Shown here in pieces: positions 9,476 to 27,414 of a stretch of 64,000 bases of DNA; position 1 is the first letter of the stretch; every line of letters begins with the position of its first letter. The translations under genes were made by a program, and so were the position numbers. The DNA is from Acidobacteriota bacterium (lineage in GTDB: Bacteria > Acidobacteriota > Vicinamibacteria > Vicinamibacterales > UBA2999). Where the stretch lies: positions 62,001-126,000 of the forward strand of contig JAKFYH010000021.1 in the NCBI GenBank assembly GCA_021730945.1, in the 5' to 3' direction. The notes beneath the pieces were generated by a model, which saw nothing but the letters and a program-made list of their open reading frames with translations, did not search any database and was not told the origin of the DNA.

Positions 9476-10825
9476 ATGTCTGCCATCTATCCGTTCAAGG
9501 CTCTGCGTCCGGCACCCAAAGCCGCCGCGGCCGTCGCCTCGGTGCCCTACGATGTGGTGAACTCCGAGGAGGCTCGAGCCCTCGCCGACGGCAACCCTCT
9601 CAGTTTCTTGCGAGTGTCGAGACCGGAGATCGAGCTGCCGCCTGGGACCGACCCCCATGGCGACGCCGCCTACGACCTGGCCGCGAAGAACTTCGCGCGC
9701 CTGAAGGCACTGGCTCCGTTCGAAGTGGAGGACGCGGCCAGTTTCTACGTCTACCGTCTTCACATGGGCGCCCATGTCCAGTCGGGTGTGGCGGCGTGCT
9801 TCTCGATTGATGAGTACGACCGCGACCTGATCAAGAAACACGAGAAGACCCGCCCCGACAAGGAGGACGATCGCACCCGCCACCTGCTGGCGATTGGTGC
9901 GCAGACCGGTCCGGTGTTCCTGACCTATCGCGCCTCGGCTGCGATCGATGCGGCCGTGGCCGCCGCGACCACGGGCGATCCGATCTATGACCTCGTCGCT
10001 CCCGACGGCGTGCGCCACCAGGTGTGGCGGGTGCCGGCCACCATCAATCCGCAAATCATCGATGCGTTCGCGGCCCTCGACAGCCTGTACATCGCCGACG
10101 GCCACCACCGTGCCGCCAGCGCCGCCCGCGCGAGAACCGTCTTGAAATCTGCGTCAACCGCGGCCCCGGTCAAGTCTGCGTCATCTGCGTCATCTGTGGC
10201 CCTGGGCAAGTCTGCGTCATCTGCGTCATCTGCGGCCCTGGGCAAGTCTGCGTCATCTGCGTCATCTGCGGCCCTGGGCAAGTCTGCGTCATCTGCGTCA
10301 TCTGTGGCCCTGGCAGAGTACGAATCTGTGTTGGCGGTGGCTTTTCCCGACAGCCAGATGCAGGTCTTGCCCTACAACCGCGTGGTGCGCGACCTGTACG
10401 GCCTGACCCCCACCGAGTTTCTGGCCGCGCTCAAACGACGGCTGACGGTCACTGCCGGCGGTCCGGCCACGCCGGTCCGCAAGGGCGAGTTGGCAATGTA
10501 TCTGGCCGGTGCCTGGCACACCATCACGCTCCCCACCGTGGCTCACGCGCTTGATGTGGATCTGCTGGAAGACACCATCCTCGCGCCGGTCCTGGGCATC
10601 GACGATGTGCGGACGAACAAGCGGATTGATTTTGTCGGCGGCATCCGCGGCACCTCGGCGCTGGAGCAACTGGTCAGCTCCGGCGCGTTTGCCGTGGCGT
10701 TCTCGCTGTTTCCCGTCTCGGTCGCTGACTTGATGCGGGTGTCGGACGCCGGCGGCATCATGCCCCCCAAGTCCACCTGGTTCGAACCGAAGCTCCGCGA
10801 CGGCCTGCTGTCGCACCTGCTGTGA
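9476..10825 (+). CDS. DUF1015 family protein with an internal 12-residue repeat expansion
   Basis: A 449-residue DUF1015 protein of unproven function. Family hallmarks are the N-terminal YPFKALRPAP and VASVPYDVVNSEEA, the central HEKTRPDKEDDRTRHL, IADGHHRAASAARAR near 205-217, and a late DDVRTNKRIDFVGGIRG. Between about 220 and 280 it carries an unusual Ser/Ala/Lys stretch, four copies of SASSASSAALGK, encoded by a 36-bp repeat that fits the reading frame exactly. The rest of the fold continues normally afterwards (VLAVAFPDSQMQVLPYNRVV), so the insert is probably a surface loop. It heads a likely operon with serA and serC, a context I recall for this family, which suggests a role around serine or phosphoserine (inference). 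Confidence 0.88.
   Translation: MSAIYPFKALRPAPKAAAAVASVPYDVVNSEEARALADGNPLSFLRVSRPEIELPPGTDPHGDAAYDLAAKNFARLKALAPFEVEDAASFYVYRLHMGAHVQSGVAACFSIDEYDRDLIKKHEKTRPDKEDDRTRHLLAIGAQTGPVFLTYRASAAIDAAVAAATTGDPIYDLVAPDGVRHQVWRVPATINPQIIDAFAALDSLYIADGHHRAASAARARTVLKSASTAAPVKSASSASSVALGKSASSASSAALGKSASSASSAALGKSASSASSVALAEYESVLAVAFPDSQMQVLPYNRVVRDLYGLTPTEFLAALKRRLTVTAGGPATPVRKGELAMYLAGAWHTITLPTVAHALDVDLLEDTILAPVLGIDDVRTNKRIDFVGGIRGTSALEQLVSSGAFAVAFSLFPVSVADLMRVSDAGGIMPPKSTWFEPKLRDGLLSHLL
10141..10313 (+). repeat. In-frame minisatellite: four 36-bp units, each built on a 9-bp period
   Basis: Four copies of a 36-bp unit containing AAGTCTGCGTCATCTGCG, with a degenerate copy in front. Each unit is made of 9-bp steps (TCTGCGTCA). 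Copies differ only at one or two bases (CTGTGG versus CTGCGG), so the expansion looks recent. Lengths of 9 and 36 preserve the coding frame. The same 9-bp word occurs between genes near 15.25 kb. Confidence 0.9.
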
Positions 10826-10840
10826 TCCCGACCATGTTCA

Positions 10841-10902
10841 CCCTCCCGACAAGGATTGCCCTCCCGACAAGGATCGCCCTCCCGACAAGGATTGCCCTCC
10901 CG
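10841..10902 (+). repeat. 18-bp tandem repeat abutting the serA start codon
   Basis: Three full units of CCCTCCCGACAAGGATTG (one with C for T near the end) and a partial fourth end 2 nt before the serA ATG. They fill nearly all of the DUF1015-serA gap and leave no purine-rich ribosome binding site. The same unit recurs at 21.3 kb. Confidence 0.88.
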
Positions 10903-10904
10903 TC

Positions 10905-12128
10905 ATGAAAGTCCTAATCGCTGACAAGTTCGAGAAGTCGGGGTTGGACGGCCTGAGGGCGGCCGGCTGCGACGTGATCTTCCAGCCCGACGCCAACGGC
11001 GACACCCTGGTGGCCGCGCTCAGGGACACCAAGGCCGCCGTGCTCGTCGTCCGCTCGACCAAGGTGACCGAAGCCATGCTGGATGCCGGCGCCCTGTCGC
11101 TGATCGTCCGCGCCGGCGCCGGGGTCAACACCATTGATGTGGCCGGCGCGTCGAAGCGCGGCATTTACGTGTCGAACTGCCCGGGCAAGAACTCGGTCGC
11201 CGTGGCCGAGTTGGCGATGGGCCTAATCCTTGCCGTCGATCGCCGGATTCCCGACAACGTCGCCGAACTGCGGGCAGGCAAGTGGAACAAGAAGAAATAC
11301 TCGAAGGCGCGCGGCCTGCGTGGCCAGACGTTGGGCCTGTTGGGGTTCGGTCACATTGGCCAGGAAGTGGCAGCTCGCGCCCGCGCCTTCGGCATGCCGG
11401 TGCTCGTGTGGAGCCGGCGGTTCGCTGAAGACGCCTCCGCCCGGGATGAAGCCGAACAGGCGTTTGGCATACAAGTGGTGGCGACCGCCGCCGAGCTGGT
11501 GTCGAAAGCCGACGTGCTCAGCGTGCACCTGGCGCTCACCAGGGAGACGCGCAACTTCGTCAATGCCGAGTTGCTGGCGCATATTCGGACCGGCGCGTCC
11601 TTCATCAACACCGCGCGCGGGGAAGTGGTCGACTACGCGGCGCTCGAAGCCGCGGTGAAGGAGAAGGGACTTCGCGTTGGCCTGGACGTGTTTGCCAGTG
11701 AGCCGGCCGAGGCGACCGCCGACTTTGCCGACACGCTGGTGGCGCTGCCTGATGTCTACGGCACGCATCACATCGGCGCGTCGACCGACCAGGCCCAGGA
11801 GGCAATTGCCGCGGAGACCGTGCGCATCATCTCCACCTACCAGGATACTGGCCGGGTGCCCAACGTGGTGAACCTGGCCCGGCTGACGCCGGCCACGCAC
11901 ATGCTGGTGGTGCGCCACCGCGACAAGCCGGGAGTGCTGGCGCACGTCTTCGAGTACCTGCGCGTGGCCCACTTGAACGTGCAGGAAACCGAGAACATCA
12001 TTTTCGAAGGCGCCGAAGCGGCCGTGGCGCGCATCAACCTGGATGGCGCCCCATCGCCGCGCGCATTAAGCGCCATGCAGTCGGGCAACGCCGACATCCT
12101 CGATCTTCAACTCGTCAAACTCGGATAA
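10905..12128 (+). CDS. serA: D-3-phosphoglycerate dehydrogenase
   Basis: Catalyses the first step of serine synthesis, 3-phosphoglycerate to 3-phosphohydroxypyruvate, with NAD. The 407-residue protein has the 2-hydroxyacid dehydrogenase fold with the Rossmann motif GFGHIG at 147-152, the catalytic Arg in NTARGEVVD, and the catalytic His in YGTHHIGAST. A C-terminal ACT domain from about 330 (HMLVVRHRDKPGVLAHV) is the usual site of serine feedback. Ten bases separate it from serC. The start codon directly follows an 18-bp tandem repeat and lacks a Shine-Dalgarno sequence, so translation may depend on coupling to the gene upstream. Confidence 0.95.
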   Translation: MKVLIADKFEKSGLDGLRAAGCDVIFQPDANGDTLVAALRDTKAAVLVVRSTKVTEAMLDAGALSLIVRAGAGVNTIDVAGASKRGIYVSNCPGKNSVAVAELAMGLILAVDRRIPDNVAELRAGKWNKKKYSKARGLRGQTLGLLGFGHIGQEVAARARAFGMPVLVWSRRFAEDASARDEAEQAFGIQVVATAAELVSKADVLSVHLALTRETRNFVNAELLAHIRTGASFINTARGEVVDYAALEAAVKEKGLRVGLDVFASEPAEATADFADTLVALPDVYGTHHIGASTDQAQEAIAAETVRIISTYQDTGRVPNVVNLARLTPATHMLVVRHRDKPGVLAHVFEYLRVAHLNVQETENIIFEGAEAAVARINLDGAPSPRALSAMQSGNADILDLQLVKLG

Positions 12129-12138
12129 GCAGGTCCTC

Positions 12139-13221
12139 ATGAATCGCATCTACAATTTTTCCGCGGGCCCGGCAGTGCTGCCGGTGCCGGTTCTCGAAGA
12201 AGCGCAACGCAACCTGGTCGAACTGCCCGGTGTCGGCATGTCGGTGCTTGAGATCAGCCATCGATCGAAGACCTTCGAGGAGATCCTGGCCCGCACCGAA
12301 GCCGACGTCCGCGCCCTGGGCAAGGTGCCGGCCGATTACAAGGTGTTGTTCCTGCAGGGCGGCGCGTCCATGCAGTTCTCGATGGTGCCGCTCAACCTGC
12401 TGCCGGCCGGTGGCACCGCCGACTACATCGTCACCGGCGGCTGGTCGCAGAAGGCCGTGAAGGAAGCCCAGCGCGTCGGCACCGTGAATATTGCCGGTTC
12501 GACCGAGAGCGAGAATTTCGCCCGCATTCCCCGCCAGGACGAGCTGAAGCTCACCGCCGGCGCGGCCTACGTGCACATGACCACCAATAACACCTTGTTC
12601 GGCACCGAGTGGGCGGCCGAGCCGGCCGTTGGCGATGCGCCGCTTGTGGCCGACACCTCGTCTGACATGTTCAGCCGACCGATCGATGTCTCGAAATACG
12701 GCCTGATCTATGCGGGCGCGCAGAAGAATCTGGGACCGTCAGGCGTCACCCTGGTGATCATTCGCGAAGACCTGCTGGCGCGGTCGCAGAAGTCGCTGCA
12801 CACCATGATGAACTACGCCGTGCACGCCGAGAACGGCTCGATGTACAACACGCCGCCGTGCTTCGGCATCTACCTGATGGGCCTGGTGATGAAGTGGGGC
12901 CTGTCGCAGGGCGGGCTTGATGCGGTCGGCGCCAACAACGCGCGCAAGGCGGCCAAGCTGTATGCCGAGATCGACCGCTCGGGGTTCTACCGCGGCACCG
13001 CTGACCAGGCGAGCCGGTCGCGCATGAACATCACGTTCCGCCTGCCGAACGAAGATCTGGAGAAGGCTTTCGTGAAGGAGTCCACCGCGGCTGGACTCGA
13101 CGGCCTGAAGGGCCACCGGTCGGTCGGCGGCATGCGTGCGTCGATCTACAACGCGTTCCCCGAAGACGGTGTGGATGCGCTCGTCGCCTTCATGCAGGCG
13201 TTCGAGAAGAAGAACGGGTAG
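12139..13221 (+). CDS. serC: Phosphoserine aminotransferase
   Basis: PLP-dependent enzyme converting 3-phosphohydroxypyruvate and glutamate to phosphoserine and 2-oxoglutarate. Its 360 residues match the family length. It opens with IYNFSAGPAVLPVPVLEEAQ, has ISHRSKTFEEI and FLQGGASMQFSMVPLNLL, and the PLP lysine lies in YAGAQKNLGPSGVTLVII. The C-terminal GLKGHRSVGGMRASIYNA is characteristic. It is the last gene of the DUF1015-serA-serC unit. No serB is present in the window. It converges on the poly(A) polymerase gene with 12 bases between them and no visible terminator. Confidence 0.97.
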   Translation: MNRIYNFSAGPAVLPVPVLEEAQRNLVELPGVGMSVLEISHRSKTFEEILARTEADVRALGKVPADYKVLFLQGGASMQFSMVPLNLLPAGGTADYIVTGGWSQKAVKEAQRVGTVNIAGSTESENFARIPRQDELKLTAGAAYVHMTTNNTLFGTEWAAEPAVGDAPLVADTSSDMFSRPIDVSKYGLIYAGAQKNLGPSGVTLVIIREDLLARSQKSLHTMMNYAVHAENGSMYNTPPCFGIYLMGLVMKWGLSQGGLDAVGANNARKAAKLYAEIDRSGFYRGTADQASRSRMNITFRLPNEDLEKAFVKESTAAGLDGLKGHRSVGGMRASIYNAFPEDGVDALVAFMQAFEKKNG

Positions 13222-15242: not shown

Positions 15243-15269
15243 TCTGTGTTATCTGTGTAATCTGTGGCT
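15243..15269 (+). repeat. 9-bp tandem repeat reaching a start codon
   Basis: TCTGTGTTA, TCTGTGTAA and TCTGTGGCT are three 9-bp units immediately before the ATG of the TPR-like secreted protein. Degenerate copies (CTGGTGTCA, TCTGCGGCT) continue into the signal-peptide codons. It is the same motif family as the minisatellite in the DUF1015 gene. Confidence 0.7.
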
Positions 15270-15272
15270 CTG

Positions 15273-16073
15273 ATGAAGCTGGTGTCATCTGCGGCTCTGG
15301 TGTGCCTGTTGGCCTCTACATCCGTGTTGGCGAGGCAATCCGAACTCGGCCGAGCCCGCACTCTCTACAATCAGCGGCAATTCGATGCCGCCATCGCGGC
15401 CGCTCTCGTGGCGCAGCAGGACCCCGCCACCCTCGACGCCGCCGCCGTCGTCCTCGCCCGCGCGCACCTCGAGCGTTACCGCGAACGCGCCGACCCCGGT
15501 GACTTGTCGGCGGCCCGCACTGCGTTGGGCACCATCCGTGTCAGCAGCCTGGATGCCCGCGATCACGTCGATTACCTGATGGCGCTTGGAGAAGCGCTGT
15601 TTTTCGAAGACGACTACGGCGCTGCGGCCCAACTGTTTGAAAGCGGCCTCGACGCCGCCATCACACAAGGCCCTGCGACCGCCGAGGCCATGCTCGATTG
15701 GTGGGGTAGCGCCATGGAGCGACACGCCGACGGCCTGGGCCGCGAAGACCGCGAAGCATCGTTCCGCCGCATGCGCGAACGCATGGCTCGTGAATTGTCG
15801 AGAAGCCCTGGGTCGGCGGCGGCCGGCTACTGGGTCGCGGTGGCGACCCGGGGCGCCGGCAACGCGGCCGGTGCCTGGGACGCCGCCATCGCCGGCTGGG
15901 TGCGCGCGCGCATGGCCGGCGGACTGGCCGCCAAGTTACGCGCCGACCTCGATAAGTTGGTGCTCGAAGGCATCATTCCCGACCGGGTACAACTGCTGTC
16001 GCCCGACAAGCGCGCGCAGGCCGAAGCCGATCTGCGCGCCGACTGGGCCGTGGTCAAGGAGCGGTGGAAATAA
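15273..16073 (+). CDS. Secreted TPR-like helical protein of unknown function
   Basis: A 266-residue protein with a signal peptide (MKLVSSAALVCLLASTSVLA) and an alpha-helical body. The body has TPR-like spacing (ARTLYNQRQFDAAIAAALVAQ, EALFFEDDYGAAAQLFESGL), then Ala-rich helices ending in VVKERWK. No catalytic motif is visible, so a periplasmic adaptor role is most likely (inference). The ATG is preferred over a GTG three codons upstream because it begins the signal peptide. Part of the signal peptide is encoded by degenerate units of the adjacent 9-bp repeat. It ends 5 bases from the end of polA, tail to tail. Confidence 0.65.
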   Translation: MKLVSSAALVCLLASTSVLARQSELGRARTLYNQRQFDAAIAAALVAQQDPATLDAAAVVLARAHLERYRERADPGDLSAARTALGTIRVSSLDARDHVDYLMALGEALFFEDDYGAAAQLFESGLDAAITQGPATAEAMLDWWGSAMERHADGLGREDREASFRRMRERMARELSRSPGSAAAGYWVAVATRGAGNAAGAWDAAIAGWVRARMAGGLAAKLRADLDKLVLEGIIPDRVQLLSPDKRAQAEADLRADWAVVKERWK

Positions 16074-21317: not shown

Positions 21318-21369
21318 ATCCCGACAAGGAGTGCCCTCCCGACAAGAATCGCCCTCCCGACAAGAATCG
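21318..21369 (-). repeat. Second copy of the 18-bp repeat, before the VWA gene
   Basis: Two full units of CCCTCCCGACAAGAATCG and one shorter unit (ATCCCGACAAGGAGTG) fill the gap between the membrane-protein gene and the VWA start. The unit is the one found before serA, but here it is inverted relative to the downstream gene. Confidence 0.85.
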
Positions 21370-21374
21370 CCCCC

Positions 21375-26412: not shown

Positions 26413-27300
26413 ATGACCCAGCCGAAGCCACCCTACGAGTCCTTCTTTGGATTTGTCGAGCGGCCGTTCAGCCTGACGCCCGATCCGAAGTACTACTTTC
26501 GCAGCCGATCGCACAGCCGCGCGTTTGACGCGATCGCGGCCGGCCTTGGCCGCCGCGAAAGCCTGCTGCTGGTGACGGGCGACCTCGGGCTCGGCAAGAC
26601 GACGCTGTGCCGGACGATCCTGGCGATGCTCGAACGCAAGGGCCGGGCGGCGCTGGTCGGCAACTCGATGCTGTCGCCGGAGGATCTGCTGCGCCTGCTG
26701 CTGCAGGACCTCGGCGCCATCGCCAAGGACGAAGTGCGACACGGCCGGCTGGTGGGGGCGACGCGGGTGGAACTGCAACAGATGCTCGACGAGTTCCTGT
26801 TGCGCCTGCGATCGAGCAAGGACGGCGCCGTGCTGATCATCGACGAGGCGCACAGCCTGCCGCCGGCCACGGTCGATCAAGTCGTGCAACTGGCGTCGCT
26901 CGAATCCAATCGCGAGAAGGTGTTGCAAGTGCTGCTCTCCGGCCAGCCGCCGGCGGTCGGCGGACCGGCGCTGCCGGCAGCGATCGACTCCCGGCTCGCC
27001 ACCCGCGCGAAGTTGCTGCCGCTCGAACGCGATGAGTGTGAGCGCTACCTCCACCACCGGCTGACCATTGCCGGCGGCGCCGGGGTCACGTTCGCGCCCC
27101 GGGCCGCCGACGTGATCTATGGCCTGTCCGGCGGCGTGGCCCGGCTGGTCAACCTGCTGGCCGAACGCGCCCTGCAAGAGGGCGCCGCCCAGGGCGTCCG
27201 CCGCATCGAGCCCGGCATGATCGACGCGGCGGCCTCAGCACTACAGATGCTGCGGTTGCGACCCAAACGCTTTCGCTGGTTCGGGACCAATACTCGGTAG
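26413..27300 (+). CDS. ExeA/GspA-like AAA ATPase
   Basis: A 295-residue AAA protein of the ExeA/GspA type, the group linked to secretion and pilus assembly. It opens with YESFFGFVERPFSLTPDPKYYFRS, a signature of this family. It then has Walker A GDLGLGKTT (about 56-64), Walker B VLIIDEAHSLP, and a sensor region (LATRAKLLPLERDECERYLHHRL). It lacks the C-terminal peptidoglycan-binding domain found in true ExeA, which usually follows, so it could be the ATPase core only. A pilB gene lies 14 kb away. A large repeat-hairpin begins directly after its stop codon. Confidence 0.82.
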   Translation: MTQPKPPYESFFGFVERPFSLTPDPKYYFRSRSHSRAFDAIAAGLGRRESLLLVTGDLGLGKTTLCRTILAMLERKGRAALVGNSMLSPEDLLRLLLQDLGAIAKDEVRHGRLVGATRVELQQMLDEFLLRLRSSKDGAVLIIDEAHSLPPATVDQVVQLASLESNREKVLQVLLSGQPPAVGGPALPAAIDSRLATRAKLLPLERDECERYLHHRLTIAGGAGVTFAPRAADVIYGLSGGVARLVNLLAERALQEGAAQGVRRIEPGMIDAAASALQMLRLRPKRFRWFGTNTR

Positions 27301-27414
27301 TTCAAACACGAAGGTTCAAACACGAAGGTTCAAACACGACGGTTCTCCTTCGTCTTGGAACCCCTGTATTTGAACCCCTCTGTTTGAACCCCCGTGTTTG
27401 AACCCCCGTGCTTG
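27301..27414. repeat. Facing arrays of a 14-bp repeat forming a large hairpin
   Basis: Three direct copies of TTCAAACACGAAGG start at the first base after the ATPase stop codon. After a spacer of about 25 bases come three to four copies of the reverse-complement type (TTTGAACCCCCGTG). Both arrays have a period of 14. Together they can fold into a stem of about 40 bp and separate the ATPase from the acetyl-CoA synthetase gene. Confidence 0.88.

Follow-up and report, generated by a model that had tools for sequence, protein, structure and literature searches.

A DUF1015 gene of an Acidobacteriota bacterium carrying a probable in-frame tandem expansion of a dispersed junction-type repeat

Background

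The in-frame capture of dispersed repeats has been described, in the excerpts of the literature consulted here, for Rickettsia, for palindromic REPs and for the RU elements of enterobacteria. According to the excerpted source, RPEs are short dispersed repeats that lie in frame within unrelated protein genes (PMC10969869). The GTAG/CGTC-tagged REPs are, in the part of the source at hand, high-copy and mostly intergenic sequences that often form inverse pairs; some are intragenic, and clusters encode 43-82 aa (PMC3733652). For the ERIC/RU elements, an excerpt likewise reports in-frame capture in genes of enterobacteria (PMC2759123).

The repeat analysed here works like the RPEs and the REPs without being one of them. 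As in the RPEs of the excerpt, in-frame insertion is found in unrelated genes (12 of the 109 clusters) whose orthologues are without the array. The RPEs described there are about 150 bp long and palindromic, whereas the present unit, from the Acidobacteriota, consists of a 31-nt non-palindromic head plus a linker and, unlike those RPEs, has been expanded in tandem up to about 12-13 times. With the REPs, as excerpted, it shares a high copy number (390 core sites) and the occurrence of inverse pairs (11 within 300 bp). REP units, however, are self-complementary and tagged, with a palindrome of 20-40 nt, whereas the consensus of the single head folds at 0 kcal/mol, a value equalled or surpassed by 200 of 200 shuffles; REPs also flank their cognate RAYT, whereas the Y1_Tnp genes here are not flanked by the head. 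The RU elements of the excerpt are units of 103-168 bp, in contrast to the short words of the present repeat, which form arrays and have a signal-peptide-like use in three species. Terminal inverted repeats such as those of MITEs (15-30 bp) are present in the paired forms, but most clusters are one-sided. In coding minisatellites (VNTRs), in-frame tandem units lie within a gene; such units are found here too, but they are drawn from a genome-wide family and are not private to the gene. Among the papers listed by searches of an open-access library on intragenic or Acidobacteria repeats, which included ones on RPEs, REPs and ERIC, no title or abstract opening names this family. For the word itself one unrelated paper was found, and two listed papers contain the 8-letter string atctgcgt.

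Results and discussion

The array in the DUF1015 gene

The window (the whole stretch of DNA analysed, 64,000 nt) contains a 449-aa ORF that matches the DUF1015 profile of Pfam (PF06245) in two stretches, with an E-value of 3.4e-87 and 292.8 bits against a cut-off of 25.8. A sequence-only reading had reported four near-identical 36-bp units in the middle of this gene, and these could be read directly at 10174-10317 (Table 1). TRF places the array at 10147-10313, with a period of 36, 4.6 copies, 94% matches and a score of 292, which is the highest among its 21 rows for the window. The array directly follows the conserved IADGHHRAASAARAR, and each unit encodes K-SASSASS(A/V)AL-(G/A); since V takes the place of A in two of the four units, SASSASSAALGK is a consensus only. 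The copies had also been said to differ by one or two bases, which holds except at the 3' edge of unit 4. Units 2 and 3 are identical, so that part of the expansion is recent, in line with the near-identity of the units and their absence from relatives. The unit counts come from a draft assembly and may be wrong. The search covered one genome of the array-bearing species, in which no change of copy number was observed.

The 9-bp word noted "between genes" at 15.25 kb does belong to the same word family, but its placement had to be revised: the site overlaps the start codon of an ORF and is therefore partly coding. The start codon and the N-terminus of this ORF (VSSAALV; signal-peptide-like by eye) are made of the repeat word.

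Table 1. Coordinates of the DUF1015 gene, its tandem array and the second site of the word family in the window.
Feature	Position	Strand	Remarks
DUF1015 gene, host of the array	9476..10825	+	449 aa; predicted free-serine-kinase (SerK/SbnI-like) fold
In-frame tandem array	10147..10317	+	27-nt partial unit plus four 36-nt units; TRF end at 10313
Divergent 27-nt partial unit	10147..10173	+	ATCTGCGTCAACCGCGGCCCCGGTCAA
Unit 1	10174..10209	+	1 base different from units 2 and 3
Unit 2	10210..10245	+	identical to unit 3
Unit 3	10246..10281	+	identical to unit 2
Unit 4	10282..10317	+	4 bases different from units 2 and 3, three of them at its 3' edge
Tail word TCTGTGTT	10325..10332	+	of the 108 heads read in the genome, 72 have a word of this type within the next 60 nt
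Second site of the word family	15243..15300	+	overlap with the 5' end (start codon and initial codons) of ORF 15264-16073 (MALMKLVSSAALV...)

A dispersed family of heads with private linkers

A unit combines one copy of a 31-nt head, which is dispersed in the genome and composed of 9-nt words (TCTGYGTCA), with a linker specific to its locus. The 390 sites of the 17-nt core ATCTGCGTCATCTGCGG were found with at most two mismatches in a genome of 4.73 Mb, against 0 for a reversed-pattern control. We read 909,780 bases of this genome, namely the window and stretches picked because they hold copies or, in four cases, a Y1_Tnp gene; they contain 358 sites in 109 same-strand clusters. Alignment of 108 clusters on their last word revealed a sharp-edged 31-nt head, TCTGCGTCATCTGTGTCATCTGCGGCCCTGG, with little conservation beyond it (consensus TCTGCGTCATCTGYGTCATCTGCGGCCCYGG), which is often followed, after a variable linker, by a tail word resembling TCGGTGTT. 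As a floating word, TC[GTA]G[CTA]GT[TC], this tail lies downstream within the distance given in Table 1, where shuffling predicts 2.1 occurrences and the other strand has 1. The linker, and hence the period, is private to each array (spacings of 18 to 75 nt, mostly 27-59), and on this ground dispersal appears to have come first and local duplication later.

The array in the DUF1015 gene is probably a local in-frame tandem expansion of one such dispersed junction-type repeat, captured in a permissive loop of the protein. A copy would have reached the loop by REP/MITE-like movement or by template switching between copies, and tandem duplication of this copy, along with a few flanking bases, may have followed through slippage or unequal crossing-over. 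Purifying selection would have removed insertions that were out of frame, contained a stop codon or fell in folded parts.

The family might also be a transposase-driven miniature element (MITE-like or REPIN-like), the single heads then being half-elements. Once same-direction copies lying under 80 nt from each other had been joined into clusters, 13 neighbouring cluster pairs within 300 bp remained, 11 of which are inverse with their GGCC ends outward, two of the same direction and none of the opposite inverse type. The pair at L063 3990-4065 forms one 76-nt palindrome, a clean hairpin with a z of -10.9, and, like the four other inverse pairs that were folded (five of the 11), it beats every one of 200 shuffles. 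Most clusters, however, are one-sided or tandem, no Y1_Tnp gene is found near the heads, and the phage and plasmid collections contain no match to the repeat. We regard such an element as a tentative possibility that is rather less probable than its absence; it is a sub-hypothesis on the dispersal and does not conflict with local expansion of a dispersed repeat.

A link to a RAYT was considered and rejected. Of the five Y1_Tnp matches in G000, the one nearest to a head is 1.8 kb away from it, and three have no head within about 3 kb. The number of Y1_Tnp matches does not track the number of repeats either: G008 has 12 matches and one exact core, G002 one match and 48 cores. An origin of the repeat from a phage or plasmid was likewise discarded, given that the two collections yielded no match.

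Thirteen of the 99 genomes searched, that of the window included, contain an exact match to the core (Y at two positions); they are mainly of the window's own genus and of genus g10. Of 396 genomes in the phylum, from 210 genera, 47 contain a looser form of the core (22 genera), with one control match (G241). A search with the 22-nt end of the head, which may omit the window's own genome, yielded 26 stretches in named genomes, and in 24 cases the assembly is one of Acidobacteria or Acidobacteriota. A Planctomycetaceae assembly and an Ochrobactrum record each have a single exact match to this head end (L183 and L197).

Copies within genes keep the reading frame

Twelve of the 109 clusters are sense-oriented inside a gene or a signal-peptide region, with a Ser-Ala-Ser-Ser-like reading every time and TCT GCG TCA as the reading of the head in all twelve. 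The 9-bp word, which had been proposed as one to look for in other genes, is in this way found in frame in about a dozen of them. Nine copies are interior, with as hosts DUF1015, COX1, NuoF-like, FdhA-like, ImuB-like, HupE, BatA, STT3 and a polysaccharide deacetylase; three are at gene 5' ends and form signal-peptide-like N-termini (L035, L048 and L095). We take the labels ImuB-like, FdhA-like, NuoF-like and signal-peptide-like from our own recognition of these proteins, and a Pfam search of L033 and L095 gave no match. One antisense frame of the head has a stop codon (TGA) and the other five are open, so that the common sense frame is not forced by stop codons alone. Sense copies would survive in genes because TCT GCG TCA TCT GCG encodes Ser-Ala-Ser-Ser-Ala, which makes a soluble and flexible linker or a portion of a signal peptide.

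The frame is also kept in the spacing of the units. For arrays with at least two units spaced at most 75 nt (10 in-gene and 35 others, of the 109 clusters), all spacings are multiples of three in 10 of 10 in-gene arrays (32 of 32 spacings), as opposed to 12 of 35 arrays elsewhere (34 of 107 spacings), the chance level of one in three (Fisher p 2.0e-4 for arrays and 2.4e-13 for spacings), although an open frame was among the grounds for choosing the in-gene set, a bias towards multiples of three. The set was picked by eye from a mechanical list, using coding scores and recognisable proteins, and the bias is limited by a check of the flanks in the other 97 clusters. In 38 of these both flanks are coding-scored on one strand, and among those 38 no gene broken by an out-of-frame array was seen: three consist of a single match within a long frame, 27 are antisense with the stop of the upstream gene at most 77 nt from the array in each, and in the eight sense cases the upstream gene stops between 86 nt ahead of the core and 29 nt behind it.

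The NuoF-like array (L032 10383-10516) splits an NADH_4Fe-4S domain: Pfam matches only profile positions 2-33 of 85, and 48 array residues separate the CxxCxxC motif from the later ICGLG. A long array with a period of 39 nt (about a dozen units; L035 9135-9589) occupies the N-terminal region of a 577-aa protein and ends in a signal-peptide-like core; the G001 orthologue (L179) is short. Sense N-termini of the SASSAALV type are found in three species (L035 and L095 in G000, L179 and L182 in G001, L152 in G002). No clear interior-loop array was seen in the 33 stretches of G001 and G002, with 102 sites, and loop capture of this particular head is thus documented for one species only.

Copies at gene starts on the opposite strand

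Between co-directional coding flanks, CAGATG runs along transcription 27 times, against eight times for the other orientation, a count that excludes the 12 in-gene clusters and three single in-frame matches. The antisense single matches inside long frames, three in number, were set aside from the orientation and start counts; two of them (window 41057 and L075 2217) look like chance, and the other (L065 3982) reads RATDDTD. The MTQ phase is found at 17 of the 37 coding-scored gene starts that face an array on its CAGATG side, which is not a significant enrichment (binomial p 0.12), and repeat-borne starts are therefore claimed for single genes and not as favoured.

The frame is open for at least 60 codons in 14 of the 17 genes in MTQ phase. 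For eight of these 14 (L040, L041, L043, L066, L076, L078, L092 and L109) a further ATG, GTG or TTG is available within 11 codons, and the repeat was not taken to be required for their start. In five genes, encoding an HlyD-like protein (L042), a phosphoribosyltransferase (L080), an ABC ATPase (L085), a guanylate kinase (L104) and an unnamed protein (L111), the next in-frame ATG, GTG or TTG follows only 16 to 33 codons on, past the point where sequence conserved in orthologues begins. Translation of these five most likely begins in the repeat, rare start codons being possible. In the case of ArsA (L031) the array-adjacent ATG is at the start position of the orthologues, and the alternative start at codon 8 lies inside conserved sequence.

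In G001 and G002, too, the head is found both where genes start and within N-termini that are signal-peptide-like. The HlyD-like gene of G001 (L173) also starts in the repeat, as does the L040-type gene in both G001 and G002 (L175 and L127), and the start of the G005 guanylate kinase (L140) lies in what appears to be a decayed copy.

The host protein and its loop

A search of NCBIfam assigned the DUF1015 protein to no family. Its structure model, built from 30 sequences and graded good, has a pLDDT of 85.1. Residues 237-276 are the sole listed segment with a pLDDT below 50, between a helix at 210-229, which begins at the conserved HHRAASAARAR, and a strand at 284-291. The insert is thus predicted to be disordered, in agreement with the loop position that had been proposed for it. 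Foldseek matched the model to 5x0e (E 1.8e-6; TM 0.53 by target and 0.32 by query). VIA matched it to SerK (5x0k; Z 13.2, 222 aligned residues, rmsd 5.5) and to SbnI (5uje; Z 12.2, rmsd 4.0), the next entry of unrelated function reaching only Z 4.5. When solved relatives were sought by sequence, two streptococcal hemagglutinin sequences (E 0.38 and 0.57) were returned and taken as chance.

The two genes directly 3' of the DUF1015 gene (region 9476-13221) encode a 2-hydroxyacid dehydrogenase and then a member of the class-V aminotransferase family, which by position and similarity are presumably serA and serC. Because of the fold match to SerK and SbnI and these serA- and serC-like neighbours, the DUF1015 enzyme is probably serine-kinase-like, with a floppy loop added to it; fold and neighbourhood together suggest a serine kinase role.

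With such a role in mind, the insert could be an adaptive linker of variable length and tune the enzyme in the manner of the coding minisatellites of certain surface proteins. Its place behind the HHRAASAARAR helix of a SerK-like fold, next to serA- and serC-like genes, and the maintenance of frame by the unit would agree with this. An adaptive linker is nevertheless very unlikely: the insert is missing in the relatives searched and predicted to be disordered, and the occurrence of the same unit in the unrelated COX1, NuoF-like, HupE and BatA proteins speaks more for tolerance than for a task in DUF1015. Most likely the loop itself is a disordered linker that is tolerated and has no specific task.

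Comparison with related genomes

Sixty related genomes were searched, and 56 of them, including that of the window, have a DUF1015 match. In all 55 others residues 233-268 are uncovered by any DUF1015 match, the gene aligning as pieces on either side; one weak match in G032 that covers these residues belongs to another gene. In the 29 orthologues that were read directly, the aligned region is 397-412 aa long, versus 449. By these alignments the stretch is an insertion, as the sequence-only reading had supposed, and the view of it as a junction-type repeat expanded in frame is upheld by the same unit at gene ends and in other genes. A Ser/Ala/Lys stretch conserved as a domain in homologues was not encountered among these relatives: the DUF1015 loops of G003, G005, G006, G007 and G008 have no Ser/Ala-like stretch, and G004, of the same genus, has a short look-alike, ASVPSAALAS, with a single SAAL-like stretch. 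The loops of G001 and G002 contain a GGCAGAAG word (AEGRRQKAEE, AEGNRDKAEGTRQKAES).

An alternative is that slippage on Ser/Ala codons native to the DUF1015 loop produced the array, its likeness to the junction word being incidental. The tandem units do have a common locus-specific linker, which makes the last steps local, and a Ser-rich loop exists in a sibling (the FdhA-like protein of G005), yet its DNA is of the word type. The 31-nt head, moreover, is common to about a hundred other clusters, far beyond chance, and the five DUF1015 loops named above are without a similar stretch. Slippage from native codons is highly improbable as a whole, and for the head it is largely refuted. Least probable of all is a draft-assembly artefact from collapsed or mis-joined repeats; repeats do break assembly, and a second word family is found at several contig ends, but the array lies inside a 127.6-kb contig with its frame intact, and the same head occurs in two other genomes of the genus.

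The sibling G005 lacks the array in all eight interior genes compared, the gap being a multiple of three in each (the alignment of STT3 is looser), as well as in the orthologue of L048. Its orthologue of L095 has a similar N-terminus (SALSALSVALVV), which dates the N-terminus of L095 to before the separation of the species. Other words occupy three of the eight sites in G005: an in-frame array of its own, with about six 24-nt TCTGCGGCTGTGACGACCGGAAAA units, in the COX1 loop (L163 480-640); GATCAGG words in the NuoF-like gene; and TCTGTGTCC words in the FdhA-like gene, in a loop that reads GSVSSVSSVAQ. Altogether, four of the nine interior loops have other word repeats in a sibling, two of them related (TCTGCGGCT, TCTGTGTCC) and two different.

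Other word repeats were seen in passing. A second family with an 18-nt word, TCCCGACAAGGATTGCCC, is found in the window at 10826-10902, where it fills the junction up to the serA-like start codon at 10905, and at 21319-21372. It has 162 sites genome-wide (25-nt pattern, at most one mismatch), and several of the sites listed are at contig ends, so that long arrays may break the assembly. Two adjacent 14-nt tandem arrays, GTTCAAACACGAAG and GAACCCCTGTGTTT, lie at window 27300-27414. Upstream of the arrays, L033 and L031 have coding linkers that apparently consist of AATC words (DFQSSIGNQSSMANRQPEIDRQSSIAN; WQSINPESTNRQSG). One HAD-family gene (L134, L135, L078) is preceded by three different short-word repeats in three sibling species, of the CTTCGTG type, the CACAGATGAACACAGAT type and the present word.

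Conclusion

The best reading of these observations is a REP/MITE-like junction repeat that was captured by permissive loops of proteins and underwent local expansion, while selection preserved the frame. A bolder proposal, which we consider doubtful, is that the repeat acts as a two-faced coding module that rewires proteins while it spreads, offering a start codon (CAG ATG ACR CAG) on one strand and signal-peptide cores or loops (TCT GCG TCA TCT GCG GCC CTG) on the other; certain loops would then be recurrent capture sites, filled independently by different short-word families in sister species.

What is new with respect to the systems described in the excerpts consulted is that a different, non-palindromic repeat performs in-frame capture, and does so in an Acidobacteriota lineage. 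The arrays provide their own natural control, in that those within genes are always in frame and the others are at the chance level. As natural insertions in respiratory and other conserved enzymes, they offer material for the study of where a protein can accommodate some 10 to 170 additional residues, and of how non-coding repeats turn into signal peptides, start codons and linkers.
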